Of a stretch of DNA of 64,000 bases, positions 283 to 62,059 are shown piece by piece. Made by a program: the position numbers and the translations under genes. The notes below the pieces were generated by a model. The model saw only the letters and a program-made list of their open reading frames with translations. It did no database searches and had not been told where the DNA came from. Numbering within the stretch: the first letter of the stretch is position 1; the number at the start of each line of letters is the position of its first letter. Source of the stretch: Tridacna crocea (Eukaryota; Mollusca; Bivalvia; Cardiida; Cardiidae); the NCBI GenBank assembly GCA_943736015.1, contig OX031066.1:11908245-11972244 (forward strand). The letters are read 5' to 3'.

Positions 283-470
283 AACCAGATGACAAATTTT
301 CATTTTAGACTTGTTCAGATCGAAAGCTGAAATTATGATAGTTATCTTTCAAAGAGCAGAAAACTTGTGGTAAAATAGGAAATGCTGGTAAACAGTAATT
401 TCTCCTTTCTCCAGAATGGTTTCAAAACCCTGCTTTCTCGGTGTCAGTAAAATTAAGAATCGTTTGTTAA
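283..470 (+). mobile_element. Decayed TTAA-palindrome element
   Basis: A degenerate copy. The long arm (GACAAATTTTCATTTTAGAC) and core (GGAAATGCTGGTAAACAG) are recognisable but diverged. Its right TTAA (467-470) is also the left TTAA of the next copy. Confidence 0.5.
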
Positions 471-655
471 CTCTTTACCAAACGACAAAATTTTAGACAA
501 ATTGAAAACATTTGCAGATGACAAAATACATGTAAACATAACTAAAAAAATTGACATTTGTTTTCAGCAAGGTAGAAAACATTGTAGGAAAAGGAGAAAA
601 TGCTGGTTACCACTATGTTTTCAAAAGGCTTCTATCTCAGGGTCGTAAAAACCTG
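467..655 (+). mobile_element. TTAA-palindrome element, core half lost
   Basis: Begins TTAACTCTTTACCAAACGAC with the long arm reading into AGGAGAAAATGCTGGTTACC. The right half of the core palindrome is then missing and the sequence resumes at TATGTTTTCAAAAGGC. The end runs up to the intron polypyrimidine tract just before the exon at 674, so the terminal repeat is absent. Confidence 0.7.
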
Positions 656-673
656 TTCTGCCTTTCATTACAG

Positions 674-799
674 ATCTGGGCATTACAACAGAAGAGTTAT
701 CAGTAATAAATGCAACGCGGCATGCAGACGACAAATATATTTGTTTGGCAGAAAACAACTACGGATCTGTCGAGAGAGAAATAAGCCTTGACGTGCATT
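674..799 (+). CDS. Ig-superfamily gene, exon a (end of an Ig domain)
   Basis: Internal coding exon. It follows a good acceptor (CCTTTCATTACAG) and ends at donor GTAAGT. It reads in frame from base 676 as LGITTEELSVINATRHADD, then KYICLAENNYGSVE. The D-x-x-Y-x-C-x-A-x-N-x-x-G pattern is the F-strand and G-strand signature of a cell-adhesion-type Ig domain, holding the second disulphide Cys. Two bases precede the first full codon and one follows the last, so the exon is phase 1 at both ends, as is usual for Ig domain boundaries. NAT is a possible N-glycosylation site. The start of this domain must lie upstream, outside the window or in an unseen exon. Family resemblance is to lachesin/IgLON-like and related neural adhesion proteins. 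The exact orthologue cannot be named from this fragment. Confidence 0.75.
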
Positions 800-821
800 G
801 TAAGTATATGAGCCATACTTT

Positions 822-913
822 GTGAAAAGGGGGCTTAAGGCATCTGTGAAAAGTATCAGCCCAGGTCAGCCTGTGTAGACCGTGAAGGCTGAGCTGGGCA
901 AATAATTTTCGCT
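822..913. repeat. GCCTGCGCAGGC-type palindromic repeat, partial
   Basis: Contains GTGAAAAGGGGGCTTAAGGC, then CCCAGGTCAGCCTGTGTAGA and an imperfect reverse complement (AAGGCTGAGCTGGGC). It matches the family best seen at 50600-50820. Confidence 0.6.
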
Positions 914-918
914 ATTGA

Positions 919-1145
919 TTAACCCTTTACTCCATAGTTACCCATTTCTAAGCATTGCTTGTAGGAGCCTTTGGAAAACATTGTGGCAAAAGGTGAAATT
1001 GCTCGTGACGAGCGATTTCACCTTTTGCCACATTGTTTACTATGCTATCAAAAGGTGTCATACACATAAGAAACAGTTTTATCTTTGCTGTTATTTAGGG
1101 TCAATTGGAGATACAATAGAAATGCCTTATGGGGTAAAGGGTTAA
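919..1145. mobile_element. TTAA-palindrome element, alternative core (GCTCG type)
   Basis: Has TTAA at both ends and CCCTTTAC/GTAAAGGG terminal bases. The core reads GGTGAAATTGCTCGTGACGA with its mirror, in place of the usual GAAAATGCTGGTAACCAGC. The arms also differ from the main family (TCCATAGTTACCCATTTC, CTTATGGGGTAAAGGG). Confidence 0.75.
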
Positions 1146-1775
1146 TGTTATGTATGCCAAGGACCTGTGTACCTCAGGATTCAGTAAGTTGTTATACAAA
1201 ACAGATTTTAGAATAGGCTCATATGAATTACATGTATACTATAGGTAATTAGACAAAAACTTCATCTTTCTCTAAATCAAATATTGTGTAATTGAAAATT
1301 AAGTTCTTCAGCTGTAATGGTTTCTTAGGTGGTCTTCATACGACATAAAAAAGGTATTTTGCAGGAGGAAGGAGTTAAACCTGTTACCATAGCAACAGAT
1401 GCACCCATTAAAAGGCCTCATTGCTTGGACTTATTTTGATACACCCAAAACAGATTGTGTTTAAAGATATTCTTAAAAAATTGGGCAAGTGCTCATGTGA
1501 AGTAATTTGTCAATTTCTTATGTCTTCTAACTTATTCATGAAAAAAAGAAACAAAAAAGGAATGCATGACATTCCCGTGCAAAATCAAAAATGGTAATGG
1601 GTCTCAATGTACAATTATATTGAAGTTGTAAGTTTTGCACTTGGATTTGCTTGTGCCCATGCTCTAAACTTTACAGGGAAAGAACAATACATTTATGATA
1701 TAATCAAAGTTTTACAGGGTGAAATTATAAAGAAAAAAAGTCAATGTAGTTCTTCTGTTTTTGTCATTGTATCAG
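1146..1775. other. Intron of the Ig gene, no repeat recognised
   Basis: AT-rich intronic sequence between exons a and b. An open frame runs through the end of it into exon b but has no Ig-like content before base 1776. Confidence 0.5.
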
Positions 1776-1927
1776 TTCCTCCGGAAGTGATGTTGTTTGA
1801 AAAGGAAGCAGAAGTGAATGTCGGTGAAGAAGTAGTAATGGCATGTATTGTCCAGTCATCTCCCTTTGAAGACGCATTTTGGACGAATAAGAAAGGAGAG
1901 CGTTTGGCAACTAACTTTAAACACATT
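1776..1927 (+). CDS. Ig-superfamily gene, exon b (first half of an Ig domain)
   Basis: The acceptor (TGTCATTGTATCAG) is followed by two bases that complete the phase-1 codon left by exon a, so the junction reads ...LDVHF-PPEVMLF. The PP-x-V linker is the usual start of the next Ig domain. VNVGEEVVMACIV carries the B-strand Cys and DAFWTNKKG the C-strand Trp. The exon ends at ATT before the donor GTAAGTGTC, in phase 0. The reading frame remains open into the intron to 2020, but domain content stops at the donor. It encodes an extracellular domain that continues in exon c. Confidence 0.8.
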
Positions 1928-2230
1928 GTAAGTGTCTTTACAAGTGAAAGGCGTCATGTAGTCATCAATACTAAACTTATTTTGTTTTCCGACGTCCATG
2001 GATTATGGTCCTTTTTCTGACAAACTATAACAAGTAAATTTTAACTTTTTTATGCATTTTGATGCCAAGAACAACAGTATTCTTGATGGCTGCCCAGTGC
2101 ACCTGTCTATGAATAATGACTATTCACTTTCAGCACTACACTCTATACTTAGGAAGCCACCGGCTTCTCTCTAGTGCACATCAGGCCATCATAATGTACC
2201 ATATTGAGAAAACAATTGAAAGATAATGTA

Positions 2231-2459
2231 ATAACCCTTTCCCAAACAATCCCTGGTTTTTACGGGTCTAGAATAGTAGCCTTTTGAAAACATCGTGGGA
2301 AAAGGAGAAAATGCTGGTAACCAGCATTTTCTCCTTTTCCCACAATGTTTTCTACCCTATAATAGACAGATATCATCTTTTCAGCAAGAGTTGAATTATC
2401 GTGTGCAAACGCTTTCAATTTAGTCTAGTCCAAAAGTTTTTTGTTTGGGAAAGGGTTAA
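2231..2459 (-). mobile_element. TTAA-palindrome element
   Basis: Complete copy with the short arm first. The left end is mutated to ATAACCCTTT; the right end is AAAGGGTTAA. The core palindrome is intact around 2314. Terminal bases are CCCTTTCCCAAAC rather than CCCTTTACCAAAC, marking a sub-type shared with the copies at 16717 and 46154. Confidence 0.85.
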
Positions 2460-2556
2460 AGAACTGCAATTTGCTGTTATTCAAAGTTTCATAAAGAAAA
2501 TTACTCCAATAGAACCTAGACTACTAAGCCCGACTCATTGACATTTTGCCCCGAAG

Positions 2557-2592
2557 TGTAGCTCAAGATCAGACTGCACACAGTCTGATCAG
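2557..2592. repeat. GATCAGACTGCAC hairpin repeat, short copy
   Basis: GCTCAAGATCAGACTGCACA is followed directly by CAGTCTGATC. This is the small hairpin family with a shortened loop. Confidence 0.6.
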
Positions 2593-2664
2593 AAGATATT
2601 TCTCTGAAAAAATATTTTCAAAGTAACATTATTTTGGTTTCTACTATTGGCCTGAAAAGTTTAT

Positions 2665-2893
2665 TTAACCCATTACCACACAAGAAAAATTTAGACTGGT
2701 CCAAATTAAAAGCATTTGCAGACGACAAAATAAAGGTGACTGAAAAATTGAAATTTGTTCTGGGAAGAGTAGAAAACACTGTTGGAAAAGGAGAAAATGC
2801 TGATTACCAGCATTTTCTCCTTTTCCCATAGTGTTTTCAAAAGGCTTCTTTCTCATGGGCGTCAAAAGTAGGGATTGTGTGGTAATGGGTTAA
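2665..2893 (+). mobile_element. TTAA-palindrome element
   Basis: Complete, with TTAACCCATTACCACAC at the left and its mirror GTGTGGTAATGGGTTAA at the right. This is the ATTACCACAC end sub-type. The right TTAA is shared with the next copy. Confidence 0.9.
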
Positions 2894-3117
2894 ACCTTTT
2901 CCAAACAGTCCTGGTTTTCACAACCCAGAGGTAGAAGCTTTCTGAAAATATTGTGGGAAAAGGAGAAAATGCTGGTAACCAGTATTTTCTCCTTTTCCCA
3001 CAATATTTTCTACTTCTCTGATGCCAAGTTTCAATTTTCGAGTCACATTTATTTTGTTGTCTGCAAATGCTATCAATCTTGACAAGTCTAAGATTTGTCA
3101 TTTGGTAAAGAGTAAAG
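2890..3117 (-). mobile_element. TTAA-palindrome element abutting the previous one
   Basis: Starts in the same TTAA (2890-2893) that ends the preceding copy. The core has one mismatch (CCAGTATTTTC). The right end has decayed to GGTAAAGAGTAAAG. It ends about 50 bp before exon c, so much of this intron 3' region is transposon. Confidence 0.85.
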
Positions 3118-3164
3118 CTTATACACATACTCTGGTATGTACACACAACGTCTGTGTTTTAAAG

Positions 3165-3730: not shown

Positions 3731-3852
3731 AAACACCATACAAACTAATATCAAAGCAATCCATGTACCTATTATAACATATAATATTTAGAAAGTAGAG
3801 AGCAACCCTGATATTACAAGAGAATGGATATCCTACTATGAACTCTATCAAA

Positions 3853-4069
3853 GTCTTTACCACAATCCTGATTTTTAACGACCCTGAAGAAAAAGGCCTT
3901 TGAAAATACTGTTGGAAAAGGAGAAACTGCTGGTACCCAGCATTTTCTCCTTTTCCCATGATGTTTTCTGCTTAATCAAAGACAAGATTCATTATTTAAA
4001 CCAGACTGATGTTGTTGTCTGTAAATGCTTTCAACTTGGACAAGTCTGATATCTTTGCATTTGGGCAAC
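3853..4069 (-). mobile_element. TTAA-palindrome element, ends decayed
   Basis: The short arm with CTTTACCACAATCCTGATTT comes first and the core has two mismatches. It runs directly into the next copy with no spacer, and the former TTAA between them reads CAAC. Confidence 0.75.
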
Positions 4070-4285
4070 CGTTTACCAAACAATCCCTGGTTTTTACAAT
4101 CCTGAGATAGAAGCCTTTTGAAAACATAATTGGAAAAGGAGAAAATGCTGATGACCAGCATTTTCTCCTTTTCCCACAGTGTTTTCAATTTGCTGGAAAC
4201 AAATTCCAATTTTTCAGTTATGTTTATTTTGAAGTCTGCAGGTGCTTGGATCAGTGTAAAATTTGGTTGTTTGGTAAAGAGTTAA
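4066..4285 (-). mobile_element. TTAA-palindrome element
   Basis: Head-to-tail with the previous copy, in the same orientation. The core is intact apart from GATGACC at the centre. The right end is GGTAAAGAGTTAA. Confidence 0.8.
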
Positions 4286-4801: not shown

Positions 4802-5030
4802 TTAACCCTTTTCCACACAACAACATTTTAGACATGTCAGAATTGAAAGCATTTACTGATGACAGTTCCAATGTGGCTCATATTAAATGATTTTTCTTTG
4901 ATAAGGTAGAAAACATTGTGGGAGAAGGAGAAAATGCTGGTAACCAGCATTTTCTCCTTTTCCCACAATGTTATTGAAAGCCTTTCATTTCAGGGGCATT
5001 AAAAGTCGTCCTTGTGTGGTAAAGGTTTAA
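4802..5030 (+). mobile_element. TTAA-palindrome element
   Basis: Complete with TTAA at both ends and CCCTTTTCCACAC terminal bases. The long arm is diverged (GACAGTTCCAATGTGGCTCA), a variant shared with the copy at 34083. Confidence 0.85.
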
Positions 5031-5233: not shown

Positions 5234-5400
5234 CAGAAAATACCTACAATGTTTAGATCTATTTACAGCATTGAAATAACAAATTGTGCAGGTAACGGTA
5301 AAGAAGTGTACAAGTGGTTGAATTCGGAACCTCTTTGAGATAAGACTCGTCCGTCCATTTATGTACCGTATACATGTAGTAAAAGTCTACAGTTTTTACC

Positions 5401-5603
5401 ATTTACCACTTTATGCCGACTTTTAAATACCCTTGGAAAGAATCCTTTTGAAAACATGTTGGGAAAAGGAAAAATTTCTGGTAACCAGCATTTTCTCTTT
5501 TTTCCTATTAAAAAATGATTGCATCATTATAGCCTTACTGAAATTGTCATCTGTAAATCCTTTGAGTTTGGATATGGCTAAAATTTTGTTTGGTAGAAGA
5601 TGA
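5401..5603 (-). mobile_element. TTAA-palindrome element, decayed
   Basis: The core keeps CTGGTAACCAGCATTTTCTC but the left flank reads GGGAAAAGGAAAAATTT. The terminal repeats are eroded on both sides (ACCACTTTATG, GTTTGGTAGAAGATG). Confidence 0.6.
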
Positions 5604-5654
5604 AAGGATATAAAAGGGGAAAAAACAGTTTGTAAATCTCCATACACTAGTGGA

Positions 5655-5742
5655 GGCATTTGAGATTATTGTGGGAAAATGGGTGAATGCTGGTAACCAG
5701 CATTTTCCTCCTTTTTTTCCCTCTTATGTTTTCTACCCATGG
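5655..5742. mobile_element. TTAA-palindrome element, core only
   Basis: Only the central part remains: GATTATTGTGGGAAAATGGG, ATGCTGGTAACCAGCATTTT and ATGTTTTCTACCC. Confidence 0.55.
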
Positions 5743-5754
5743 GAATGGAAGATT

Positions 5755-6237
5755 AATTAGCTACACTGGCCGAAGGCCAGCGAGCTATTGTCATGGCGTT
5801 GTGTCCGTCCATCCGTTCATCTGTTCGTCCATGCGTACGTCCGTAAACTTTTTCTTTAAAAAACTTCTCCTCAGAAACTACGGACTGGATTTTTACCAAA
5901 TTTCACAGGAATGTTCCCTAGGTGGTCGTCTTTCAAATTCCTTCAAATAATAGTGTTCCGTGAATAATTCTGGTTGCCATGGCAACCAAAGTAAAAAACC
6001 TTTAAAAATCTTCTCCTCCCAAACCGCATATTGGATAGCATTATCATTTTGCTGGAATGATCCTTAGATAGAGGTCTACAGAATTCCTTAATAAAAAAAA
6101 GATCCGTCAAAAAATATGGCTTTTATGAGAGACTCATTTTCCTTTTATGGTATAAAGTAAAATCTTTGAAAAATTTCTTCTCTCAAACGATTCATTGGAT
6201 ATCATTGTTGTATTGCAGGTTGGTTCCTATGGTTGTA
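5755..6237. repeat. Unclassified dispersed repeat with GTCCGTCC start
   Basis: Begins near GCGAGCTATTGTCATGGCGT and a run of CCGTCC-like triplets, then AT-rich sequence with three loosely similar blocks (CTTCTCCTCAGAAACTACGG, CTTCTCCTCCCAAACCGCAT, TTCTTCTCTCAAACGATTCA). The same start, GCTTATGTCATGGCG...GTCCGTCCGTCC, recurs at 63715. It has no coding sequence and its class is unknown. Confidence 0.5.
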
Positions 6238-6238
6238 A

Positions 6239-6463
6239 GTCTTTACCATACAATCCTGACTTTTAACAACCGTGAAGAAGAAGTCTTTGGAAAACACTCT
6301 TGGAAAAGGAGAAAATGCTGGTAATCAGCATTTTCTCCTTTTCCCTCAGTGTTTTCTACTCTATCAAAGAGAGAAATCATCATTTCATCAATTTTCAATA
6401 TGTTGTCTGCAAATGCTTCCAGTTTGGTCACATCCAAAATTTTGTTGTTTGGTAAAGTGTTAA
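6239..6463 (-). mobile_element. TTAA-palindrome element
   Basis: Near-complete. The left end reads CTTTACCATACAATCC with its TTAA lost. The right end is GGTAAAGTGTTAA. The core differs from its mirror at one site (GTAATCAGC). Confidence 0.8.
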
Positions 6464-6721
6464 AGATGGTTGCTTTACATAATCTATAATCCTTTTCATA
6501 TAAAACAAGAGAACCTCTGCACTTTGATTAGTTCTGGTAAAGGTTTGTTGACCTACTGGTGACCTAGTACAAAGAGGGACAGGGATTTACAGTTGTGAAC
6601 TTGTGATAAGGCATTTTGTTATCCAATCAAACTGATCCTGCAGATTCAATAAAACAATTGCCACAATACATATTTTCTATATTTTGATGTTTCCCCACCC
6701 AAAATCGTTTGTAACAAGACC

Positions 6722-6955
6722 TTCTTTAACTATAACCAGAAGACAAAATTTTTACAACTGGTCATAATTGAAAGATGTTGCAGTCAACATAATAAATCTT
6801 CAAATTAGTATAACTTGTATCAAAAAGGGTAGAAATTATTGTGTAAAACTAAGAAAATGCAGGTTACTGTTATTTTCTTCTTTTCTCACAATGTTTTTCA
6901 TAGCTTTTTTTCTTTAGTGACCTAAAATGCAGGAATGAATGGTAATTGTTAAAAA
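6722..6955 (+). mobile_element. TTAA-palindrome element, strongly decayed
   Basis: Arm motifs (AGACAAAATTTTTACAACTG) and a mutated core (AAGAAAATGCAGGTTACTGT) identify it. It is one of the oldest-looking copies. Confidence 0.45.
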
Positions 6956-7547: not shown

Positions 7548-7757
7548 TTTTAACTCTATACCATACAGTCCCGAGTTTTAACGACCCTGAAAGAAAATGC
7601 TTTTGAAAACAATGTGTGAAAAGGAGAAAAAACTAGTGACTAACTTTTTGTCCTTGATGCACAATTTTTTCTAGCCTATCAAGTACAGAAATCATCAATT
7701 TAGCTACATTTAATTTGTCATCTACAAATACTTTTAATTTTTCATATGGTATCTAGA
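7548..7757 (-). mobile_element. TTAA-palindrome element, decayed
   Basis: The left arm is clear (CTATACCATACAGTCCCGAG, GACCCTGAAAGAAAATGC). The core is destroyed (AAAAACTAGTGACTAACTTT) but the right arm is still traceable to GTCATCTACAAATAC. Confidence 0.5.
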
Positions 7758-7978
7758 GCTTAAACCCATTGCTGTTCAATCAACACTTTTGATGTTACAG
7801 TTACAAAACAGTGTTTTTAAAATGGAAGCATTGTGAGGGAAGGGGCAACTTGACATGAAATATAAGGTCCTTTGTGAAACAGTGTTAATCATGTACATGT
7901 GCATGTACTTTTGTAAAGATTTTTTACCTCCCTACCAATTTTGCGGCATGTTTCTTGGCCTACATACATGTATATAGA

Positions 7979-8632
7979 CCTTTACCAAGCAATCTCATGT
8001 TTTGACGACTCTGAGGAAGAGACCTGAAGAAATCATTATGGGAAAAGGAGAACTGGGTCCGTATTCTTAAACTATTCTTAAGAACATTCTTTGTCTTACT
8101 GTAGGCCTCTGAAATTCATTGGTCTATAAAGGGATAAAGAAATTTTCATTATCGGACACTGTTACCATAAATAGCACACTGGGAATTCCGTCTTTATTGT
8201 ATATAATAAGACTTTATAAGTACATTACAGAGGGTATCCTCAATGCACTATTTATAGTAACAGTATTGATGAAAGTTTGTAAATATATTCAGTGATACAC
8301 AGGCGATGCACCAAAGTGCTGTGAATGTTTAATGATCGACAAAGGACAATTTTAGTGTTCTTTGATAGACCATTAGAGCTTCAAAGGCCTATGATCTTGC
8401 TCTTCAAGATTTTCTGTGAAAGCAACAGAACATCAGAAGTTTTTTTACTTTCACATTGACAAATCTGAAGAATAAGACTAGAAATGGTTAGTGACTACGG
8501 ACCCTAGTAATCGGCATTTTCCCACCATGATTTCTAACCTTTGAAGGACGATTTCCTGCAAGTTGAGCCATATTGAATATGTTATTTGCTTTGGGTTTGG
8601 ATGGGTATAGAATTTTGCCCTCTTGTAAATAG
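7979..8632 (-). mobile_element. TTAA-palindrome element split by another insertion
   Basis: The left half is 7979-8053 (CCTTTACCAAGCAATCTCAT ... GGGAAAAGGAGAACT). The right half resumes near 8506 (GTAATCGGCATTTTCCCACC) and runs to about 8632. The break falls inside the core palindrome. The intervening sequence is a separate element. Confidence 0.6.
8054..8505. mobile_element. Nested ~450-bp element with GGGTCCGTA inverted ends
   Basis: GGGTCCGTATTCTTAAACTA at the left is mirrored at the right by TTAGTGACTACGGACCC. It interrupts a TTAA-palindrome copy. Internal sequence includes CATTCTTTGTCTTA, similar to 30080-30105, which also begins inside a broken palindrome. It has no coding capacity and its class is unknown. 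Confidence 0.5.
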
Positions 8633-9784: not shown

Positions 9785-9885
9785 CCGGTGTAATGCAGAG
9801 AAATGACTCTCCCCTGCAAAATGACCCATGGGTCATTTCTCTACGAAGAATGATGACCCGCATAGGGGGTCATTCCTCCCCATTG
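9785..9885. repeat. ATGACCCATGGGTCAT palindrome cluster
   Basis: GCAGAGAAATGACTC, the 16-bp palindrome ATGACCCATGGGTCAT, and ATGACCCGCATAGGGGGTCAT lie within 100 bp and can fold into nested hairpins. The right side abuts a TTAA-palindrome copy whose short arm is missing. Confidence 0.5.
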
Positions 9886-10066
9886 AAAGCATTGTGGGAA
9901 AAGGAGAAAATGCTGGTCGCCAGCATTTTTTCCTTTTTCCCAGAATGTTTTCTACCCTTCCCAAATCGAATTTCAATTTTTCAATCACATTTCGTTTGTC
10001 GTCAGCAAATGCTTTCCATTTGGACTAGATCTAGTCTTAAATTTTGTCGTATGGAAAAGGGTTACA
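9884..10066 (-). mobile_element. TTAA-palindrome element, left end lost
   Basis: Begins at GAAAGCATTGTGGGAAAAGG. The core is near-intact (GCTGGTCGCCAGC) and the long arm runs to GTCGTATGGAAAAGGGTTAC. Confidence 0.7.
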
Positions 10067-10115: not shown

Positions 10116-10360
10116 AGTAATTAAAGCCCTTCCCGACTGCGTCACCCTACACTTAACAATCGCGTGGTTTAACGATCCATCCCCGATGAGGAGGGCGTTT
10201 GAAAATGTCGTGGAAAAAGGAGAAAATGCTGGTCACCAGCATTTTCTCCTTTTTTCACAACGTTTTCTTGTCTCCCAAAATTAACCCAATTAACCGAGCC
10301 AAATTTGATTTGTTGTCTGCAAATGATTTCGAAATAGTGAAGTCTAAAATTTTGTTTTTC
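10116..10360 (-). mobile_element. TTAA-palindrome element, diverged arms
   Basis: The core is intact (GGAGAAAATGCTGGTCACCA and mirror) but the arms are strongly diverged. CGATCCATCCCCGATGAGGA replaces GACCCTGAGATAGAAGCC. Confidence 0.6.
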
Positions 10361-11002: not shown

Positions 11003-11232
11003 TTAACTCATTACCAAACGACAATATTTTAGGCTTGTCCAAATTGAAAGCATTTGCAGAGGAAAACAATGAAAGTGACTGATAATTTGAAATTTGTTTT
11101 GTAAAGGGTAGAAAACATTATGAGAAAAGGAGAAAATGCTGGTTACCAGCATTTTCTCCTTTTCCCACAGTGTTTTCTAAAGACTTCTTTCTCAGGGTCG
11201 TCAAATGTAGGGATTGTGTGGTAATGGGTTAA
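11003..11232 (+). mobile_element. TTAA-palindrome element
   Basis: Complete with TTAACTCATTACCAAACGAC at the left and GTGTGGTAATGGGTTAA at the right, so the two ends belong to different end sub-types. The core is intact. Confidence 0.9.
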
Positions 11233-11562: not shown

Positions 11563-12049
11563 TTGACATTTACCTCAAAAACGAGTGTTCGACTTTACCG
11601 TTTTTAACCCTTCACCACACAATAACTACTTTCGACGTCCCTGAAGTAAAAGCCTTTTGAAAACATTGTAGGAAAAGGAGAAAATGCTGGTTACCAGCAT
11701 TTTCTCCTTTTCCCACAATGTTTTCTACCCTTCCCAAATCAAATTTTGATTTTTCAGTCACATTTATTTTGTCATCTGTTGACATTTACCTCAAAAACGA
11801 GTGTTCGACTTTACCGTTTTTAACCCTTCACTGCACAATAACTACTTTTGACGTTCCTGAAGTAAAAGGCTTTTTAAAACATTGTAGGAAAAGGAGAAAA
11901 TGCTGGTAACCAGCATTTTCTCCTTTTCCCACAATAGTTTATACCCTTCCAAAATCAAATTTCGAATTTTCAGTCACATTTATTTTGTCATCTGCAAATG
12001 CTTTCAATTTGGATCACTCCACAAATTTGTCGTTTGGTAAAGAGTTTAA
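11563..12049 (-). repeat. Tandem duplication containing two TTAA-palindrome elements
   Basis: TTGACATTTACCTCAAAAAC starts at 11563 and again at about 11779. Unit 1 holds a copy (from TTAA 11604) cut off after TTTTGTCATCTG. Unit 2 holds the same copy complete to TTAA 12046-12049. The shared flank shows that element and host sequence were duplicated together, not inserted twice. Confidence 0.8.
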
Positions 12050-12594: not shown

Positions 12595-12821
12595 TTAACC
12601 CTTTACCAACAATCCCTGGTTTTTACGACCCCGAGATAGAAGCTTGTTGAAAATAATGTGGGAAAAGGAGAAAATGCTGGTTACCAGCATTTTCTCTTTT
12701 CCTGAAATGTTTTCTACACTGCTAGAAACAAATTTCAATTTTTGAGTTGCGTTTGTTTTGTCGTCTGCAAATGCTTTCAATTTGGACTAGTCTAAAAATT
12801 TGTCGTTTGGTAAAGAGTTAA
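12595..12821 (-). mobile_element. TTAA-palindrome element
   Basis: Complete with TTAA at both ends. One base is missing in the left terminal repeat (CCCTTTACCAACAATCC), and the core right half lacks two bases (TTTTCTCTTTTCCTG). Confidence 0.85.
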
Positions 12822-12944
12822 ATCTTCTATGAAAGGAGTGTGGCCTAAGATCAGCCTATGATTCCTAATCGAGGGTCTGATCGTGGTTATATATAACCAT
12901 AATTGGAGATTTTGTGAATACCGTCCCCATGCATAAAAATGAAG

Positions 12945-13119
12945 AAAGCTTCAGAAAACATTGTGGGAAAAGGAGAAAATGCTGCTAACCAGCATTTTCT
13001 CCTTTTCCAACAATGTTTTCTGCTCTGATAAGGACACACTGCACAGTATGAGCCAGGTCAAATTTGTCGCCAGCACAGGCTTTGAACAAGTCTAAAATTT
13101 TGTTGTCAGGTACAGATTA
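12945..13119 (-). mobile_element. TTAA-palindrome element, left end lost
   Basis: The core is intact except for a GCTGCTAACCAGC centre. The right arm is diverged and ends GTTGTCAGGTACAGATTAA. Confidence 0.65.
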
Positions 13120-28849: not shown

Positions 28850-28850
28850 G

Positions 28851-43102: not shown

Positions 43103-43130
43103 CACTGCTCCACATGTCAACTGTTGTCAA

Positions 43131-48242: not shown

Positions 48243-48586
48243 GAATGGTTGGTGAATATAGGCCTATGGTCACTCCCATTACCAACAACTCGTCCAATGC
48301 CGTACATGTTGTGCAGACTTGAATGAATGGTATAGTACAGGATCAGACTGCACATTCTTCTGGTTTATATTTACCACTAAATATAGTACTGTATATTTTA
48401 TTCAGTGGTTTTCTTCAGATATCTATGAGGTGGAACAAAGTACATACCGTTCACGAAGTAGTAGCTTTGTTGATATTAGCTTCACAATATATGAGTATAT
48501 ATCTGTCTTGAGCCTCGTAAAGTACTCATATAATGTCATAGGGTATTTGTAACAGTATTTGATTGCTTTTTTAAACGAAACAAAAT

Positions 48587-48790
48587 ATTTTTAACGACCC
48601 TGTAAAACGAAAGCTCTTGAAATGATCGTTTGAAAAGGAAAAATGATGGTTACCTGCATTTTCTCTTTTTTTCCAGTGTTTTGTACTCTATCAAAACCAA
48701 GTTTCGTATTTTTGGCCACATTTATGTTGTCATCTGCAAAAGCTGTCATTTTTTAACTTTGTGAACTTTTGTCGTCTGATAAAGAGACAA
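48587..48790 (-). mobile_element. TTAA-palindrome element, decayed
   Basis: AACGACCCTGTAAAACGAAA, a mutated core (GGAAAAATGATGGTTACCTG) and GTCATCTGCAAAAGCTGTCA mark it. The terminal repeat is GTCGTCTGATAAAGAG. Confidence 0.55.
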
Positions 48791-49162: not shown

Positions 49163-49384
49163 TCAACCCTTTCCCAAACAATCCCCCGTTTTTACGACGC
49201 TGAGATAGAAACCTTTTGAAAACATTGTGGGAAAGGGAAAAAATGCTGGTAACCTTCTCCCTTTCCCTCAATGTTTTCCACCCTGCTGGAAACAAATTTC
49301 AATTTTTGAGTTACATTTATTTTTTCATCTTCAAGTGCTTTCATTTAGACCAGTCTGAATTTTCATCGTCTGGTAAAAGGTTAA
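49163..49384 (-). mobile_element. TTAA-palindrome element with asymmetric core deletion
   Basis: TCAACCCTTTCCCAAACAAT at the left, TTAA at the right. After AAATGCTGGTAACC the next seven bases of the right stem are missing and the sequence resumes TTCTCCCTTTCCC. Confidence 0.8.
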
Positions 49385-50820: not shown

Positions 50821-51740
50821 CAGCTAAAATATATAACACAATGGAACGAGGGCGATAAAGGCTTTCTCTATAGATAATTGTCTCACGACCTTTTCCGTTC
50901 TGCCGTAGACTACGTGTGTTTCTGAAGAAAGGGTCGGAAAGGAAGAGATTGCTTTTCACGAACAGTTTGTTCATTTGTCAAACAGTGTTACATTCATCCC
51001 TTAACTGTATATTTTTTTTCCCTTGAATATCGTTTACTTTCGATTTCAACCTGGATGTTTGTGTAAAAGAGGTAGCAAGAGTTCCGGGGAGTTGTTTTAC
51101 ATGGGTCCAATATTTCTATCATATATGGCAGCGGTTGTCTTACCTTTGCGGGCTTTTCAGAAAATGGTTTTTTTTGTTTTTAAATACTGGAAACGTGAAT
51201 AATTTTCCTTCCTTGAACCTCTGTATGGTAACCAGAAAGGGTCATATCGATCCTGCAAGAGTGGTAGAATTGTTGAAGTCAGTTTGTCCTATAATATAGA
51301 TAGATGACAACCAAATTACTGTCTAGGAAATTACTCCATTACCATAGATATACCCTACTTTTTACACTCCTGTAATGGATAACGTTTGAAACAAAAGGTT
51401 AATGGGTCAATTTTGACAAGTAATTGCTTCTTTTTCCTTAATAGTTTCTATCGAATTGAAGAAAAGTAGTTCCCTTGCTTTCAATGTTTTTCTATTTTGT
51501 CCTGTTTCGTTATGTAAGCAGTTGGTATATAGTGTTACCTCTTTCTGTAATGGGTTTGAGTGGAACATAATGACACACTTACAGTCGTTTGTGTGAGATA
51601 TAATAGACAATCTCATTTCAGTACCGCATCGATCGATTGCTTTTGGCTTTTGGGACGAAAAAAAAAAAGAGAAAGTAACGCCAGAGGGAAACTCTTTAAG
51701 TACTGTGGCATGCACCGGAACTTATGTCGTTAATTCTGTC
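50821..51740. other. No feature recognised
   Basis: AT-rich sequence with a T8 and an A9 run. The minus-strand open frame 51407-51715 has no known motif and no clear splice sites. Confidence 0.35.
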
Positions 51741-51741
51741 T

Positions 51742-51969
51742 TTACTCTTTACCACATGAGAAAATTTTAGACCGGTCCAAATTGAAAGCATTTGCAGACG
51801 ACAAAATAAAGGTGACTGAAAAATTGAAAATTGTGTTGGGAAGGGTAGAAAACACTGTGGGAAAAGGAGAAAATGCTGGTTACCAGCATTTTCTCCTTTT
51901 CCCACAGTGTTTTCAAAAGGCTTCTTTCTCAGGGGCGTCAAAAGTAGGGATTGTGTGGTAATGGATTAA
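51742..51969 (+). mobile_element. TTAA-palindrome element
   Basis: TTTACTCTTTACCACATGAG at the left, GTGTGGTAATGGATTAA at the right. The core palindrome is exact over GAAAACACTGTGGGAAAAGG and its mirror. Confidence 0.88.
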
Positions 51970-52993: not shown

Positions 52994-53215
52994 TTAATCC
53001 TTTCTCGAATAAGCCCTTGTTTTTACGTGCAATATAAGTCTTTTGAAAACACTGTGGGAAAAGGAGAAATTGCTCGTAACGAGCAATTTCTCCATTTCCC
53101 ACAGTGTTTTCTACCCTTTTGGAGAACTTTCAGTCATTTTCATCAAGTTTTAAAATTGTCGTCTGCTATCTCTTTCAGTTTGGAAGAGTCTAAAATTTGT
53201 CGTTTGAGAAAGAGG
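52994..53215 (-). mobile_element. TTAA-palindrome element with main-type arms and alternative core
   Basis: TTAATCCTTTCTCGAATAAG at the left. The arms are of the main family (TTTTTACGTGCAATATAAGTC, TTGTCGTTTGAGAAAGAG) but the core is GGAGAAATTGCTCGTAACGA with its mirror. It is one of the clearest hybrids. Confidence 0.8.
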
Positions 53216-53305
53216 TATCTAATTCAAAATATAGTCAGAATTAACAGAAAAAAATAATGGAATGATAACATGTGCTCTTAATTAAACCTTACTCAAGTGT
53301 CTTTT

Positions 53306-53900: not shown

Positions 53901-54128
53901 TTAACCCATTACCACACGACAATAATTTAGACTGGGCCAAATTGAAAGCATTTGCAGACGACAAAATAACAGTGACTGAAAATTTGAAAATTGTTTTCTG
54001 AAGATAAGAAAACATTGTGGGAAAAGGAGAAAATGCTGGTTACCAGCATTTTCTACTTTTCCCACAATGTTTTCTAAAGGCTTCTTTCTCAGGGTGTCAA
54101 AAGTAGGGATTGTGTGGTAATGGGTTAA
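53901..54128 (+). mobile_element. TTAA-palindrome element
   Basis: Complete with TTAACCCATTACCACACGAC and GTGTGGTAATGGGTTAA. The core is perfect but for one base (TTTTCTACTTTTCCC). Confidence 0.92.
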
Positions 54129-54922: not shown

Positions 54923-55095
54923 TTAACTCTTTACCACACAAGAAAATTCTAGACTTTACGCAAATGTCCAAAATTAACCCTGTACCACACGGTCCGTTGT
55001 TTAACCTCGCCTAAAAAGGACGGTTTTGAAAATATTGTGCGAAAAGAAGAAAATCGCCTTCGATTGCTTTGAGTTTTGGCGATTGGCAAAGGTTA
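54923..55095. mobile_element. Two TTAA-palindrome relics
   Basis: TTAACTCTTTACCACACAAG (54923) stops after about 40 bases. TTAACCCTGTACCACACGGT (54974) continues with GAAAATATTGTGCGAAAAGA and then loses similarity before the core dyad. Confidence 0.55.
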
Positions 55096-55584: not shown

Positions 55585-55820
55585 AGAAACTAATTTTGTT
55601 GTTATTGACAATGACAGAGTCGTCTCCTGCGAATTTGTTTGATGTCGTAATGAATGGTTATGGGATTTTTTCCTGCAGAAACTTCCTGTTTTGTTCCGAT
55701 GGTTATATTATAATCAATATCTGGGTGTCACGTGAGAACAGCCTCCGTCTACCCGGTATTTTATTGATCTGTAACCTCATAAATTAGAATCCAGATACAA
55801 AACCAACCTTCAGTAATTCT

Positions 55821-56030
55821 TTAACTCTACCAAACGGCAAATTGAAAGCACTTCCAGACGACAAAATAGAAAATAACTCAAATATTGAAATTTGTTTCAA
55901 GCAGGGTAGAAGACATCGTGGGAAAATGAGAAAATGCTGGTTACCAGCATTTTCTCCTTTTCCCACATTGTTTTCCAGAGGCGTGTTCCACTGGGTCGTA
56001 AAAACCAGTGATTGTTCGGTAAAGGCTTAA
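55821..56030 (+). mobile_element. TTAA-palindrome element
   Basis: TTAACTCTACCAAACGGC at the left with a deletion in the long arm; GTTCGGTAAAGGCTTAA at the right. The core is near-perfect. A decayed relic of another copy follows at 56035-56200. Confidence 0.8.
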
Positions 56031-56249
56031 TAATTTTGAAATCATAGCGGAAAGGAAGAAAATGCCAGGAACATTAACAAGCATTCTTTGCTTTTCCAAC
56101 AATACTTTCTACCGATTATAAGACGATTTCTGAACTACTCGTGGTTTGTAAACACTTCCTATTTTGACAGGCTTTTAATTTTGTTGTCTGGTAAAGTTAT
56201 ATATTGAGATTTCTAGGTCCTTGTCCCCGGAAATAATTCTCGGTATCAA

Positions 56250-56646: not shown

Positions 56647-56876
56647 TTAACCCTTTCTCAAACAGCAAATTTTAGACAAGACCAAATTGAAAGTATTTTG
56701 CAAATGACAAATTAACAGTTGCTAAAAAAGATGATATTTCTATATGTTAGGTTAGAAAACACTGTGGGAAAAGGAGAAAATGCTGGTTACCAGCATTTTC
56801 TCCTTGTCCCACAATGTTTTCACAAGGCTTCTATTCTTGACCCGTAAAAACCAGGGATTTTTTGGGAAAGGGTTAA
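56647..56876 (+). mobile_element. TTAA-palindrome element
   Basis: TTAACCCTTTCTCAAACAGC at the left and TTTGGGAAAGGGTTAA at the right. Core right stem has one change (CTCCTTGTCCC). Confidence 0.88.
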
Positions 56877-56878: not shown

Positions 56879-56950
56879 GGCCAGCCGTGGAGATCGAACC
56901 CACACAGTCATGATTACGAGTCCTACGCTCTATCAACTGAGCTTTGCAGG
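56879..56950 (-). mobile_element. tRNA-like sequence, probably a SINE head
   Basis: On the minus strand AAAGCTCAGTTGATAGAGCG is an A-box/D-arm and GTGGGTTCGATCTCCAC a full T-arm with B box. The CAGCC/GGCTG ends can pair as an acceptor stem. Four extra bases before the D-arm and a poorly paired anticodon stem make a working tRNA unlikely. The following 250 bases include SINE body text. Confidence 0.5.
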
Positions 56951-57059
56951 CTGGTCCGTGAAATGTAATGTACACGGCGTGATACAATATAGTTGCTGCT
57001 TAGAATCCTCCGCCCAGCACATTTCTACCAAGCCCGGGAAATTTCTACCAGAGGATTGA

Positions 57060-57452: not shown

Positions 57453-57660
57453 TTAACTCTATACCAAACGAAAATTTATAAACTAGTCCAAATTGAAAGC
57501 ATTTGCAGACCACAAAATAAATGTGATTGAAAAATCGAAATTTGATTTTGGAAGGGTAGAAAACATTGTGGAAAAAGGAGAAAATGCCGGTTTCCAGCAT
57601 TTTCTCCTTTTTCTTACAGTGTTTTCAAAAGGCTTCTACACCGTGCTAACAAAAAAACTA
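57453..57660 (+). mobile_element. TTAA-palindrome element, right end lost
   Basis: TTAACTCTATACCAAACGAA at the left. The core is paired but altered at the centre (GCCGGTTTCCAGC). It fades after GCTTCTACACCGTGC. Confidence 0.75.
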
Positions 57661-57861
57661 TCCGCCATGTCAAAATAGTCCGTAAAAGACAAAATAAATC
57701 AATAAAAACTGCAGCTTCTGGATCTTTCACCGCCGGTAGGAAAAATTTAATTTTGTTTGTTTGGCACTTTTTGGGGGATAAATTTGCCAGAACAAGATAT
57801 ATTGTTATATTAATATTGCCATTTTATTCCGATACTGAAGTTTTATTGCAGTAAAATCCTT

Positions 57862-58060
57862 AACTACTCAAGCCCAAGCTGTAAAGACCACGGTGAAATG
57901 GGCTTTTGAAAACATTGTGGGAAAAGGAGAAAATGCTGTTAAACAGCATTTTCTCCTTTTCCCACAGTGTTTTCTACCCTTTTTACTCCAACATCTCATA
58001 TTAATTCCAGCCACATTTGAATTGTTTGGGAAATATTTTCAATATGGACTTTTTGTTTAT
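57862..58060 (-). mobile_element. TTAA-palindrome element, diverged arms
   Basis: TTAACTACTCAAGCCCAAGC begins an unusual short arm (GTGAAATGGGCTTTTGAAAA). The core is a perfect palindrome with a shortened centre, GCTGTTAAACAGC. Confidence 0.7.
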
Positions 58061-58099: not shown

Positions 58100-58295
58100 C
58101 TTAAACTCAAAGTTTAAACGAACTTGGTGAAATGGGCATTTGAAAACATTGTGGATAAGGAGAAAATGTTGTTATACAGCACTTTCTCCTCTTCCCGCAA
58201 TGTTTTACCCCTTTACAGCAAAATCTCATAATTCCAGCCATATTTGAACTGTCGTCTGCAAATATTTCCAATTTGGACTCGTTCGGAAAAAAATA
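58100..58295 (-). mobile_element. TTAA-palindrome element, sister of the preceding copy
   Basis: Shares the unusual GTGAAATGGGCATTTGAAAA arm and GTTGTTATACAGC centre with 57862-58060. It joins the next copy without a spacer. Confidence 0.65.
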
Positions 58296-58614
58296 CCTCA
58301 TTACCAGACGACAAAGGTTTGGACTCGTCCAAACCCAAAGCATTTGCGGATGACAAAACAAAATGTGGTTCATTTGAGGGATTTGTCTTTTTATCCTGTA
58401 ACAAACGACACATTTTAGATTCTTCTTATGCACTTGCAGACGGCAATTCGAAAAACTTGTTCTTTCTAGTTACAGTTCTCTGAGATGGGAGAAAACATTT
58501 TGGAAAAAGGAGAAATTGCTCATTACGAGCAATTTCTTCTTTTCCCGCAATGATTTCAAAAGCCTTCTACACTATAGGGTCTTGAAAACCACGGATTGTT
58601 TGGTAAAGTGTTAA
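58296..58614 (+). mobile_element. TTAA-palindrome element(s), composite with alternative core
   Basis: The long-arm text occurs twice (GACAAAGGTTTGGACTCGTC and GACACATTTTAGATTCTTC), so two copies are fused. The core is GGAGAAATTGCTCATTACGA with mirror, and the end is GTTTGGTAAAGTGTTAA. Confidence 0.65.
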
Positions 58615-58719: not shown

Positions 58720-58947
58720 TTAACCAATTACCACACAATCCCTACTTGAGAAAAAAGCCTGAGAAAAAAAGCCTTTAGAAAACATTATGGGAAAAGGAGA
58801 AAATGCTGGTAACCAGCATTTTCTCCTATTCCCACAATGTTTTCTATCTTTCACACACACAAAAAAATTCTGTCAGTTTGATTTTGTCGTTTGCAATTGC
58901 TTTCAATTTGAACAAGTCTAAAATATTGTCCTTTGGTAATGAGTTAA
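58720..58947 (-). mobile_element. TTAA-palindrome element
   Basis: TTAACCAATTACCACACAAT and GGTAATGAGTTAA ends. A GAGAAAAAAGCCT stretch is duplicated in the short arm. The right stem has one change. A decayed relic follows (58950-59072). Confidence 0.82.
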
Positions 58948-59072
58948 CCGGCGTAGTGAGAATTTTGAGAAGAGGAAAAGATGCTGAATACCAGCAATTT
59001 CTTCTTTCCTCGCCATAATTTCAAAAGTTTCCCTCGTTGAGTTCGTTAAAGCGGAAGAGTGTTTGGGAAAAG

Positions 59073-59404
59073 GTAACATCAGTTTTCGTGCTTCCGGTGT
59101 ATAAATAAATCGTTCTGTGAATTAAATAAACCACAGGAGCGTATGTTGTTCTGCGAAACAAAGTGGGTTTTATTTTCTCCGGGAAGGGATAGCTTGTTAA
59201 TTTGATGGCAACTTGATTCTTTGATGGAAAAAGATTCTTGTAAATAATTAACGGTCAGGTAACGATCGTAGAATTTTCTGTTGATCCAGCAAAATTGGAT
59301 ATGCTCTGCGATCGTTGCACTGATAAATCGAAGTCTGTAATCACGTGATTGTGCACTGCACGAGTTCTTACCTGTGAGGAAACAGAAATACTTCAAAACT
59401 TTTT
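59073..59404. other. No feature recognised
   Basis: A minus-strand open frame crosses this stretch and enters the repeat at 59405. It has no motif and no splice support. Confidence 0.35.
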
Positions 59405-59685: not shown

Positions 59686-59687
<2 letters not shown>

Positions 59688-60087: not shown

Positions 60088-60163
60088 TATGAAAAGGGGG
60101 CAGTATCGACCCAGATCAACCTGTGCAGTCCGCACAGACTGACTTGGGCCTAAACTGTTTGCT
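60088..60163. repeat. GCCTGCGCAGGC-type palindrome, partial
   Basis: ATGAAAAGGGGGCAGTATCG then ACCCAGATCAACCTGTGCAG and its mirror GCACAGACTGACTTGGGC. Confidence 0.6.
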
Positions 60164-60168
60164 TTTGG

Positions 60169-60518
60169 TTAGCCCTTTACCAAACAATCCCTGGTTTTTA
60201 CGACCCTGAGATAGAAGCCTTTTGAAAACATTGTGGGAAAAGGAGAAAATGCTGGTAACCAGCATTTTCTCCTTTTCCCATAATGTTTTCTAAGCACTGC
60301 TTACGTTCGCATCCATTTTGCATTAAATTTTGAACTGTATTTGTAAATTATCTTGTACACTCTAGTTGATTTTGCAAATAAAATATGTTTAAACTAAACT
60401 AAAGTTTTCTATCTTGTTGGAAACAAATTTCAATTTTTGAGTCACGTTTATTTTATCATCTGTAATTGCTTTAAATTCGGACCAGGCTATAATTTTTTGT
60501 CGTTTAGTAAAGAGTTAA
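60169..60518 (-). mobile_element. TTAA-palindrome element split by a retro-insertion
   Basis: TTAGCCCTTTACCAAACAAT at the left, GTTTAGTAAAGAGTTAA at the right. The core is intact. It is interrupted after TAATGTTTTCTA and resumes at GTTTTCTATCTTGTTGG. Confidence 0.88.
60295..60401 (+). mobile_element. 5'-truncated retroelement with GTTTTCTA target duplication
   Basis: About 105 bp of AT-rich 3' sequence ending AATAAAATATGTTTAAAC then TAAACTAAA. GTTTTCTA is present on both sides, once as part of the host palindrome element and once as the duplicate. The tail matches the SINE at 57213-57425. Confidence 0.7.
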
Positions 60519-60819
60519 TTGTCTGCTTTTCAAAGACCATTATACCTCACGATTCAGTGGGTTTGATAGACAAAATGGCTTTTAAGGATCCAGAATTATG
60601 TGTTGATTTACTAGGTATCATGGATAAAAGAGTTGCATTAAGCCCCCTTTCCCCTGACCATGGCTTAGATATAGTTACTTTAGCTCAAGTTTTGATCCTG
60701 GGTCTACCCTGTCGAATAGGACGAGACATTGTCGACAAAAGTTAACTTGAGAATTCAATTATTTACGACAGTTATTCTTGACTGAGTAATCGAACTTTGC
60801 TTTTACGACGTTCTATGAT
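60519..60819. other. Open frame without recognised content
   Basis: A plus-strand frame to 60745 (includes AFKDPELCVDLLGIMDKRVA) begins inside a palindrome element and has no splice or motif support. It is left uncalled. Confidence 0.3.
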
Positions 60820-61048
60820 TTAACACTTTGCCAAACAATTCCTGGTTTTTATGACCCTGAGATAGAAGCCTTTTCAAAACATTGTGGGAAAAGGAGAAAA
60901 TGCTGGTAACCAGCATTTTCTCCTTTTCCCACAATGTTTTCTACCCTGCTGGAAACAAATTTCAATATTTGAGTTACTTTTATTTTGTCGTCTGCAAGTG
61001 CTGTCAATTTGGACCTGTTTAAAATTTTGTCGTTTGGTAAAAGGTTAA
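60820..61048 (-). mobile_element. TTAA-palindrome element
   Basis: Complete with TTAACACTTTGCCAAACAAT and GTTTGGTAAAAGGTTAA and a perfect core. It is a good type copy for the short-arm-first orientation. Confidence 0.92.
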
Positions 61049-61102
61049 TTTACTATAACAGTAAGCATTTGCGTCACTGCATGGACACAGTGAATCGCAG
61101 TC

Positions 61103-61334
61103 TTAACTCATTACTACCACACAATCCCTACTTTTGATGCCCCTGAGAAAGAAGCCTTTAGAAAACATTGTGGAAAAAGGAGAAAATGCTGGTGAACAGC
61201 ATTTTCTCCTTTTCCCACATTGTTTTCTACCCTTCACAAAACAAATTTCAAATATTTAGTCACTTTTGTTTTGTCGTCTGCAAATGCTTTCTTTTTGGAC
61301 AAACCTAAAATTTTGTTGTTAGGTAATGAGTTAA
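61103..61334 (-). mobile_element. TTAA-palindrome element
   Basis: TTAACTCATTACTACCACAC has a 3-base duplication in the terminal repeat. The right end is GTTAGGTAATGAGTTAA. The core centre is GCTGGTGAACAGC. Confidence 0.88.
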
Positions 61335-61690
61335 GTAAAACGATATTCTCGTAAAGTTGGAAATAAGCAAGAAATATTAAACGCAAGAAATACTAAACAG
61401 GACAAATTGCTGCTAGAGGATTAAACCATTGTAGGAAGTCGGTAGCTTAAAGAAACTGACAAATGTAGACATATTGATTGACTTGGATAGAAAACAGAAC
61501 TGCAAACAATGGCATGATTGAGCTACATAATTGACAACTTGCCTGTTAGAGAACGTTTATCTATGCATGGTATACTGCTGGAAATGTAGACTGATATCAG
61601 TTCTGTAAATAGAGCCTTTTCATTTAAGAAAATCAACAAGTAGAACTGCAAAACGAAAACTCTGTGTTCTCAATGTTCTAAATGTCTGAT
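61335..61690. other. No feature recognised
   Basis: AT-rich with no shared repeat. AAGAAATATTAAACGC and AAGAAATACTAAACAG form a short direct repeat. Confidence 0.35.
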
Positions 61691-61918
61691 TTAACGCTTT
61701 CCCAAACGACAAAATTTTAGACTGGTCCAGATGAAAGCACTTGCAGACGACAAAATTAATGTTACTCAAAAAGCAAAATTAGTTTCCAGCAGGCAAGAAA
61801 ACATTGTGGGAAAAGGAGAAAATGCTGGTTACCAGCATTTTCTCCTTTTCCCACGATGTTTTCAAAAGGCCTCTCTCTCAGGGTCGTAAAAACCAGGGAT
61901 TGTCTGGTAAAGGGTTAA
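61691..61918 (+). mobile_element. TTAA-palindrome element
   Basis: Complete with TTAACGCTTTCCCAAACGAC and GTCTGGTAAAGGGTTAA. The core is exact except one base near the right edge. A relic of a further copy's right side continues to about 62010. Confidence 0.92.
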
Positions 61919-62059
61919 AGCCTGTATTTTCTTCTTTTCTAAAATGTTTTCAAAAAGCTTCTTTCCTAGAGTCATTGGAAGCCGGCATTGTAAACGCCTG
62001 TATTTCAGATAAAGGGCTAGTAACAACACATATTTCTGTGACTTTGCTGTAGTTATGTA

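Follow-up and report, generated by a model that had tools for sequence, protein, structure and literature searches.

Background

The closest precedent for the element reported here is provided by the CMITEs of Acropora corals, small miniature inverted-repeat transposable elements (MITEs) with a TTAA duplication, CCCTTT ends, a link to piggyBac and tandem arrays (PMC2872659). The internal region of CMITEs is described as more conserved between families than the terminal inverted repeats (TIRs), and the authors suggest that the centre has a role in transposition (PMC2872659). Here we describe a MITE family of the bivalve Tridacna crocea, recognized in a window of 64,000 bases (positions 11,908,245-11,972,244 of contig C11; "the window" denotes this whole stretch) of a 1.049-Gb genome with 31 contigs, 18 of which are of chromosome size (40 to 77 Mb). 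It has the TTAA site, the CCCTTT ends, a putative piggyBac link, tandem arrays and a conserved centre in common with CMITEs, but it is 229 bp long and present in roughly 0.8 million pieces, whereas CMITEs are about 100 bp long with estimated copy numbers of 108 and 183 in the table rows of that paper (PMC2872659). Its centre is a palindrome with mirrored changes, whereas the main text on CMITEs contains no word beginning with "palindrom" or "hairpin", and its outermost bases are conserved too, unlike the TIR pattern reported there (PMC2872659). Among the titles and abstracts found in a literature search, none describes this element.

The transposons piggyBac and piggyBat target TTAA, and the Daphnia element Pokey is known for its target in ribosomal DNA; to our knowledge, no central palindrome is known in the mPok MITEs of Pokey. 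These are likewise MITEs tied to a piggyBac-superfamily element (PMC4912750). The piggyBac and piggyBat transposases bind short palindromic motifs (14-19 bp) near the element ends via two paired C-terminal cysteine-rich domains (PMC11707139); the present MITE is also palindromic, but with one 67-bp palindrome inside its 229 bp. In Blepharisma, whose genome has few transposases, one MITE family (BogoMITE) is likewise more abundant than any other repeat, although it is of the Pogo type, with 8,000 copies and TAA/TTA duplications (PMC9942856).

What is new here is the palindrome, whose changes between subfamilies all come in mirrored pairs; the analysis also adds that the family is genome-wide and recently active, and that a transposase-bearing element contains a related palindrome. 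With a probability of roughly 60%, we interpret these repeats as a very large non-autonomous piggyBac-type MITE family, in which the palindrome would act in cis as a module that is required for, or favours, the mobilization of source copies, and the transposase would be supplied in trans.

Mirrored changes in the palindrome

The profile of subfamily A, made from 33 near-full copies, has 229 positions: a 55-bp arm, a 67-bp palindrome (two 33-bp halves around a single central base) and a 107-bp arm. A sequence-only reading of the window had recognized this plan, with about 60, 66 and 130 bp for the three parts, and needs correction in the arm lengths only. The consensus is non-coding, too short to encode a transposase and uniform in size, being 229 bp in all three copy sets. 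The profile of subfamily B has 13 matches across 320 kb of loci, including one in the window (919-1145); 11 were used for its consensus, and its 20-mer has 34,910 exact matches in the genome. The layout of B is that of A (55/67/107, 229 bp).

Between A and B, 82 of 162 arm sites (51%) differ, against eight of the 66 sites in the core arms; the central base differs as well. These eight core-arm differences constitute four pairs (69/109, 76/102, 81/97 and 86/92), each now another complementary pair; because all four changed on both sides, the B palindrome stays perfect (33/33 pairs). The chance of eight positions pairing in this way is about 7 × 10-6, or about 9 × 10-8 with complementarity, for equal and independent sites. 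Intermediate cores exist, in which only 81/97 and 86/92 have changed. The inner parts of the two arms differ at 19/39 and 58/91 sites and the outer 16 bp at only 3/16 and 2/16, so that conservation of the ends is similar to that of the core. The outer 12 bases of the core, GAAAACATTGTG, are common to A, B and the transposase-bearing element L042 described below. Swapping of a core between unrelated families was considered as the origin of B and ruled out, because the layout is identical and the left-arm similarity is significant (29/51 alike, with a maximum of 24 in 1000 shuffles); the right arm (43/103, shuffle maximum 44) is not decisive alone.

Among 158 cores, 119 cells were two-sided and complementary and 39 two-sided and non-complementary (64 doubles expected if independent), and 665 were one-sided. 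Across 105 distinct ungapped cores, Watson-Crick pairing holds for 3,090 of the 3,465 pairs. For 68 of the 105, 77 two-sided cells were counted, against 17.4 ± 3.5 after shuffling (0 of 500) and 11 to 17 when the pairing was slid by 1 to 3 columns; these 68 were picked by hand without a fixed rule, leaving out copies from loci fetched by core matches and several others. Such cells count related copies repeatedly, and the independent events are few.

Single copies decay one-sidedly, whereas between subfamilies the palindrome changes on both sides. On terminal branches, 262 pairs were changed on one side, 11 on both sides with complementarity and nine on both without it, 9.4 doubles being expected. 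In a set of 40 copies obtained by a whole-element search with window copy 60820 (40 scored of 4,226 candidates), 39 pairs were one-sided, two complementary two-sided and one non-complementary. These counts lend no support to repair within a copy, in which one palindrome arm would serve as template for the other: the terminal-branch doubles are near expectation and the 40-copy set is mostly one-sided. The same counts make it unlikely that the symmetry is purely mutational, that is, that the palindrome arms template each other during replication or repair and mirror changes without function. Palindromes do provoke template switching, two-sided changes are frequent across subfamilies, and a second set of 19 copies has nine two-sided complementary cells, none non-complementary and 23 one-sided, although eight of the nine are two shared pairs in four identical copies. 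Such a process leaves unexplained why the core changed at only 4 of 33 pairs while half of the arm sites changed, and why the outer 12 bases agree across A, B and L042.

Another explanation is that the hairpin acts as RNA, as a transcribed stem that is processed to small RNAs or bound by protein and is selected for this. MITE-derived microRNA precursors are known, and one full copy, folded as a single strand with DNA parameters, forms a long stem at its centre (z = -7.3 relative to shuffled sequences). Selection of this kind would need to act in cis on the transcribed copy, however, and in the pair table of the 105 cores A-C and G-T mismatches are similarly common by eye, so that G-U tolerance is not seen, decaying copies being weak evidence on this point. 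We consider an RNA function quite unlikely.

Conservation of the core relative to the arms

In the 40-copy set, divergence from the consensus is 1.75% in the core and 4.6% in the arms (CpG and subgroup-diagnostic sites removed); with only CpG sites removed, the core is lower than the arms in 36 of the 40 copies. Variants seen once amount to 0.82% (core) and 1.83% (arms) per site and copy, and variants in at least three copies occupy 2/67 core sites versus 25/124 arm sites, so that the core deficit is strongest for inherited variants. The 19-copy set gave 3.4% versus 8.1% (private variants 0.71% versus 1.19%, shared variants at 6/67 versus 27/124 sites), and the 11 subfamily B copies 2.7% versus 5.9%. 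In a tree of 105 copies, terminal branches showed 5.1% in the core and 9.4% in the arms, and internal branches 1.1 and 3.7 changes per site. The better preservation of the core, noticed by the sequence-only reading, is borne out by these measurements.

Could this be an artefact, in which conserved cores are the ones that get found and their composition makes them mutate slowly? The profiles do weight the core, the arms hold more CpG sites, and the lower rate of the core extends to private changes and to the duplicates of shared insertions considered below. However, the 40-copy set came from a whole-element search (by a tool whose first-look rules are not fully known) with CpG sites excluded, and trinucleotide context does not explain the slowness (22 private changes seen, 48 expected). 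Moreover, the comparison of A with B uses full-length consensus sequences, and composition does not predict mirrored pairs. An artefact is very unlikely. We read the slowness of the core as selection among source copies, plus a possibly low mutation rate of the core; the data do not fully separate the two.

Abundance in the genome and in the window

The exact 20-mer GTGGGAAAAGGAGAAAATGC occurs 414,670 times in the genome (207,655 + 207,015), its reversed control not at all, and the exact 67-bp palindrome 26,428 times (13,077 + 13,351). An 18-base end string, taken without the TTAA prefix, has 20,391 exact matches. A 67-mer of the arm has three exact copies; because it represents a single subfamily's consensus and includes CpG sites, three versus 26,428 overstates the contrast between arm and core. 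A sample of eighteen 10-kb loci (180 kb) was taken at 5.0 Mb, one locus per chromosome. The 137 pieces in it amount to a coverage of 12.3% (0 to 34% per locus; two of the 18 loci without any), or 12.9% with the B profile added. The family thus appears to fill about one eighth of the genome, as extrapolated from these 180 kb; scaling gives roughly 0.8 million pieces, a rough figure from a single kind of chromosomal position. When sampled and listed copies are counted together, the family is present on all 18 chromosomes. Exact core strings of 28 and 25 bases had no match in IMG/VR and GTDB contigs. Two loci, L017 (C9) and L019 (C11), consist of repeated units with a spacing of about 1.6 and 1.85 kb and one MITE copy per unit, the flanks being about 90% alike between the sets.

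In the window, GTGGGAAAAGGAGAAAATGC has 80 matches with up to three mismatches (0.03 expected; the largest of 100 shuffles gave one). The A profile alone yields 71 non-overlapping matches; the A and B profiles together yield 70 (69 A and 1 B), covering 12,818 of 64,000 bases (20.0%), 36 of them near full length. This coverage exceeds the sample mean, and four of the 18 sample loci reach or surpass the window value. The more than 50 copies with a plan of about 230 bp first estimated are thus about 70 copies or pieces. Likewise, the suggestion that the window lacks a transposase and that the family is non-autonomous agrees with the finding that none of the 118 matches to PF13843 listed for the genome, a lower bound, falls inside the window. 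The matches to the family profile (or, for 919-1145, to the B profile and consensus) are as follows.

275-470, minus: A copy, degenerate
468-655, minus: A copy, partial
919-1145, plus: B copy, full length; core 974-1040
2231-2459, plus: A copy, full; palindrome 2286-2352
2665-2893, minus: A copy, full; TTAA 2890-2893 common with the next copy
2890-3116, plus: A copy, full; TTAA 2890-2893 common with the previous copy
3849-4075, plus: A copy, near full
4065-4285, plus: A copy, near full
4802-5030, minus: A copy, full
5395-5604, plus: A copy with deletions
5652-5745, plus: A piece around core
6235-6463, plus: A copy, full; same insertion in L021
6732-6949, minus: A copy, degenerate
7551-7740, plus: A copy, partial
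7978-8052, plus: A left-arm piece
8506-8630, plus: A right-arm piece
9881-10064, plus: A copy, partial
10143-10359, plus: A copy, degenerate
11003-11232, minus: A copy, full
11605-11780, plus: A copy, partial, within a 216-bp tandem duplication
11820-12048, plus: A copy, full
12595-12821, plus: A copy, full
12941-13118, plus: A copy, partial
14732-14963, plus: A copy, near full
15134-15306, minus: A copy, degenerate
15355-15546, minus: A copy, partial
16717-16940, plus: A copy, near full
29968-30059, plus: A piece
30669-30809, minus: A piece
31079-31265, plus: A copy, degenerate
31955-32179, minus: A copy, near full; empty-site paralogue 29173-29569
33305-33398, minus: A right-arm piece
33397-33622, minus: A copy, near full
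33625-33831, minus: A copy, partial
33816-33959, minus: A copy, partial
34084-34302, minus: A copy, degenerate
34434-34612, minus: A copy without most of the core
34639-34708, plus: A core piece
36134-36351, minus: A copy; intermediate-type core at 36237-36303, with two mirrored pairs
37359-37545, plus: A copy, partial
38422-38656, plus: A copy, full
39001-39204, plus: A copy with core deletion
43129-43277, plus: MITE piece
43947-44070, plus: A piece
46154-46383, plus: A copy, full; empty-site paralogue 46532-46690
48010-48238, minus: A copy, near full
48586-48787, plus: A copy, degenerate
49163-49384, plus: A copy, full; empty-site paralogue in L001
50921-51056, plus: weak MITE match, E 2e-4
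51336-51473, plus: weak MITE match, E 4e-5
51741-51969, minus: A copy, full; palindrome with mirrored change at 63/115
52994-53218, plus: A copy; core of intermediate type
53901-54128, minus: A copy, full
54974-55054, plus: A left-arm piece
55819-56030, minus: A copy, near full
56034-56197, plus: A copy, degenerate
56647-56876, minus: A copy, full
57454-57646, minus: A copy, partial
57855-58049, plus: A copy, degenerate arms; core with two-sided change (GTTAAAC centre)
58110-58282, plus: A copy, degenerate
58295-58390, minus: A right-arm piece
58390-58614, minus: A copy; core of intermediate type
58720-58947, plus: A copy, full
58903-59075, minus: A copy, degenerate
60171-60337, plus: A copy, partial
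60401-60517, plus: A right-arm piece
60820-61048, plus: A copy, full (229 bp), used to search for the 40-copy set; palindrome at 60875-60941
61106-61334, plus: A copy, near full
61691-61918, minus: A copy, full
61924-61992, minus: A piece

Of six open reading frames (ORFs) of the window compared with Pfam, two matched, both being parts of a non-long terminal repeat (non-LTR) retrotransposon. This element lies at 18989-24328, and its matches to endonuclease, reverse transcriptase and RNase H fall in different frames. A long acidic ORF of 1155 amino acids at 39465-42932 has no Pfam match. On the minus strand, an Rfam tRNA match (56879-56951, 32.5 bits; ARAGORN did not report it) lies two bases past the end of the MITE copy at 56647-56876.

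Insertion at TTAA and recent movement

The family inserts at TTAA with a 4-bp target duplication. Among 86 near-full copies, TTAA stands at both ends exactly in 52 and with at most one mismatch per end in 78; this count drops matches more than six positions short of either profile end, as well as L006 and L007, which overlap L005. In the two fetched sets, TTAA is exact at both ends in 33 of 40 and 18 of 19 copies. Empty-site paralogues were recognized for nine of 101 near-full copies; each has a single TTAA-like site of 4 bases, whereas the filled copy has two. In four of the nine cases one or more paralogues read exactly TTAA, and in the others the site is off by one or two bases; several of these alignments are only about 70% identical. 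The best empty site (L021:5206-5434 against window 5832-6058, 92% over 229 columns) reads TTAA. Three neighbouring pairs of copies overlap by exactly one common TTAA, two of these pairs being duplicates of each other. The claim of a TTAA-bounded family stands, and the contrary outcome named with it, copies without flanking TTAA, did not arise.

Window 5832-6949 resembles L021:5206-6606, which lies on another chromosome; the two have one MITE insertion in common with both flanks and probably a second, and one insertion is found in L021 only.

Three copies (C11, C4 and C4) are identical at all 229 positions and a fourth (C10) has one mismatch, with 12-base flanks that are all different; near-identity with different flanks indicates very recent movement. 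A separate group of four identical copies has common flanks and represents duplicates of a single insertion. Older copies exist too: the 39 further relatives scored for window copy 60820 are 91-94% identical. Two copies of a piggyBac-type element with TTAACCCTTTATATAC ends are 99.9% identical over 2,765 bp, which indicates that piggyBac-type elements have also moved recently in this genome.

Candidate transposase sources

Matches to PF13843 number at least 118 in the genome (a lower bound, since 116 of 196 candidates were scored), and 26 of those listed span nearly the whole domain without a stop. Sixteen transposase loci were read, in which four clear end types (TTAACCCTTTATATAC, TTAACCCATTTATGCC, TTAACCCTAGTCATGC and TTAACCCTTTCAGYGC), some of them TTAACCC-type, were found; convincing element ends were not recognized at the other loci among the 16. 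The earlier proposal was to look for full-length elements with the ends of the MITE; the ends found are similar in type to these, and none is identical. Loci L034 and L040 contain 3.6-kb segments that are 98% alike. Both carry an open piggyBac-type gene and have their MITE insertions in common, the element ends not being recognized.

The MITE carries TTAACCCTTTACC at both ends in inverted orientation. Its consensus ends, TTAACCCTTTACCAAACAA and, inverted, TTAACCCTTTACCAAACGA, have the form of 12-19 bp TIRs with CC[C/T]T given for such elements (PMC2872659), and some copies end in TTAACTCTTT, departing from this motif. The sequence-only reading had left piggyBac and Kolobok side by side; the CCCTTT ends, together with open piggyBac-type elements with TTAACCC-type ends in the genome, favour piggyBac. 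Kolobok transposons use a TTAA target too, and in this respect a Kolobok-type transposase would fit as the mobilizer. Among molluscs, moreover, Kolobok types are described as almost exclusive to bivalves (PMC10294476). However, the CCCTTT ends of the MITE fit the hallmark CC[C/T]T of piggyBac (PMC2872659), and the PF13843 elements of this genome end in TTAACCC-type repeats. Mobilization by Kolobok is considered highly improbable, no search aimed at its transposases having been made. Motif comparison thus supports one TTAA-bounded non-autonomous family, putatively of the piggyBac rather than the Kolobok type. The assignment is based on the target site, the end motif and the available machinery.

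A related palindrome is linked to a piggyBac-type gene in L042 (C8:24819700-24823500; element 733-3164), as it lies inside the inverted repeats of this element. A 502-amino acid open frame (PF13843 at 1.5e-71) is flanked by inverted repeats, 311 and 253 bp long, whose outer 180 columns are 82% alike. The left repeat contains a 65-bp near-palindrome that starts with GAAAACATTGTG and ends with ATGTTTTC and was found by the core profile (E 2.7e-6); the right repeat contains one half of it only. L042 is linked to the MITE through its homologous palindrome; as a mobilizer of the MITE it would be no more than a candidate. Judged from coordinates only, some of its relatives are two facing repeats without room for a gene, and related arrays, perhaps subtelomeric, lie at distances of 7 to 48 kb from where C1, C2, C3 and C8 begin. 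Short derivatives of the L042 family are placed on C5, C2 and C11.

The palindrome as a putative cis-acting module

Because the core was kept with mirrored changes while the rest drifted far, the symmetry itself probably helps the element to multiply, and we infer that the palindrome has been selected for self-complementarity as a cis-acting module of amplification. A piggyBac-type element would supply the transposase in trans, and the palindrome would most likely be read as DNA, either as an enlarged symmetric docking site for a transposase dimer or after extrusion as a hairpin; such a platform or hairpin may help a copy to be mobilized.

Several observations weigh against this interpretation. 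An autonomous element with the ends of the MITE (TTAACCCTTTACCAAAC) was not found in the 16 loci read of at least 118; the MITE interior also showed no similarity above the shuffle range to five autonomous elements (L029, L032, L033, L036 and L039). The palindrome is several times longer than the piggyBat and piggyBac binding sites and stands mid-element. Some recently moved copies have one mismatched pair, so that perfect symmetry is not strictly required. The contrast between core and arms is milder in the 19-copy set, in which one insertion is present four times, than in the 40-copy set. Nine duplicate pairs were compared, and in the six with both flanks in common the core differs at 12/403 and the arms at 49/1000 positions, a weak difference that does not look significant. 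The three pairs left out (core, arms) are window 6949 and L021 6606, with one flank in common (2/63, 6/162), L015 6597 and 7451 (2/67, 27/161), and window 2891 and L015 6598 (4/67, 42/159). Since the core is slower also for private changes and in duplicates, part of its slowness may be mutational.

Other repeats with near-perfect central palindromes and arms of about 33 bp occur at window positions 16169, 16292, 50757 and 55551 and in L011, L012, L014, L016, L020 and L025. They have GATCAGCCTGCGC or GATCAGACTGCAC cores or at least three unrelated ones, some of them twice per element, and different families combine similar cores with arms that look unrelated.

That the palindrome is a module dependent on self-complementarity, kept by selection among source copies and common to transposase-bearing elements such as L042, is a tentative possibility that we weigh jointly with a more general one: if true, the unrelated central palindromes with arms of about 33 bp in other repeats would mean that central hairpins generally favour the success of MITEs in this lineage, whatever their transposon superfamily. 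One family that makes up about one eighth of the sampled genome, has recently been mobile and carries a module changing in mirrored pairs constitutes a natural experiment on the cis requirements for amplification. It bears on the question of why some MITEs reach hundreds of thousands of copies, and its palindrome offers a concrete structure to compare with the conserved centre of the coral CMITEs.

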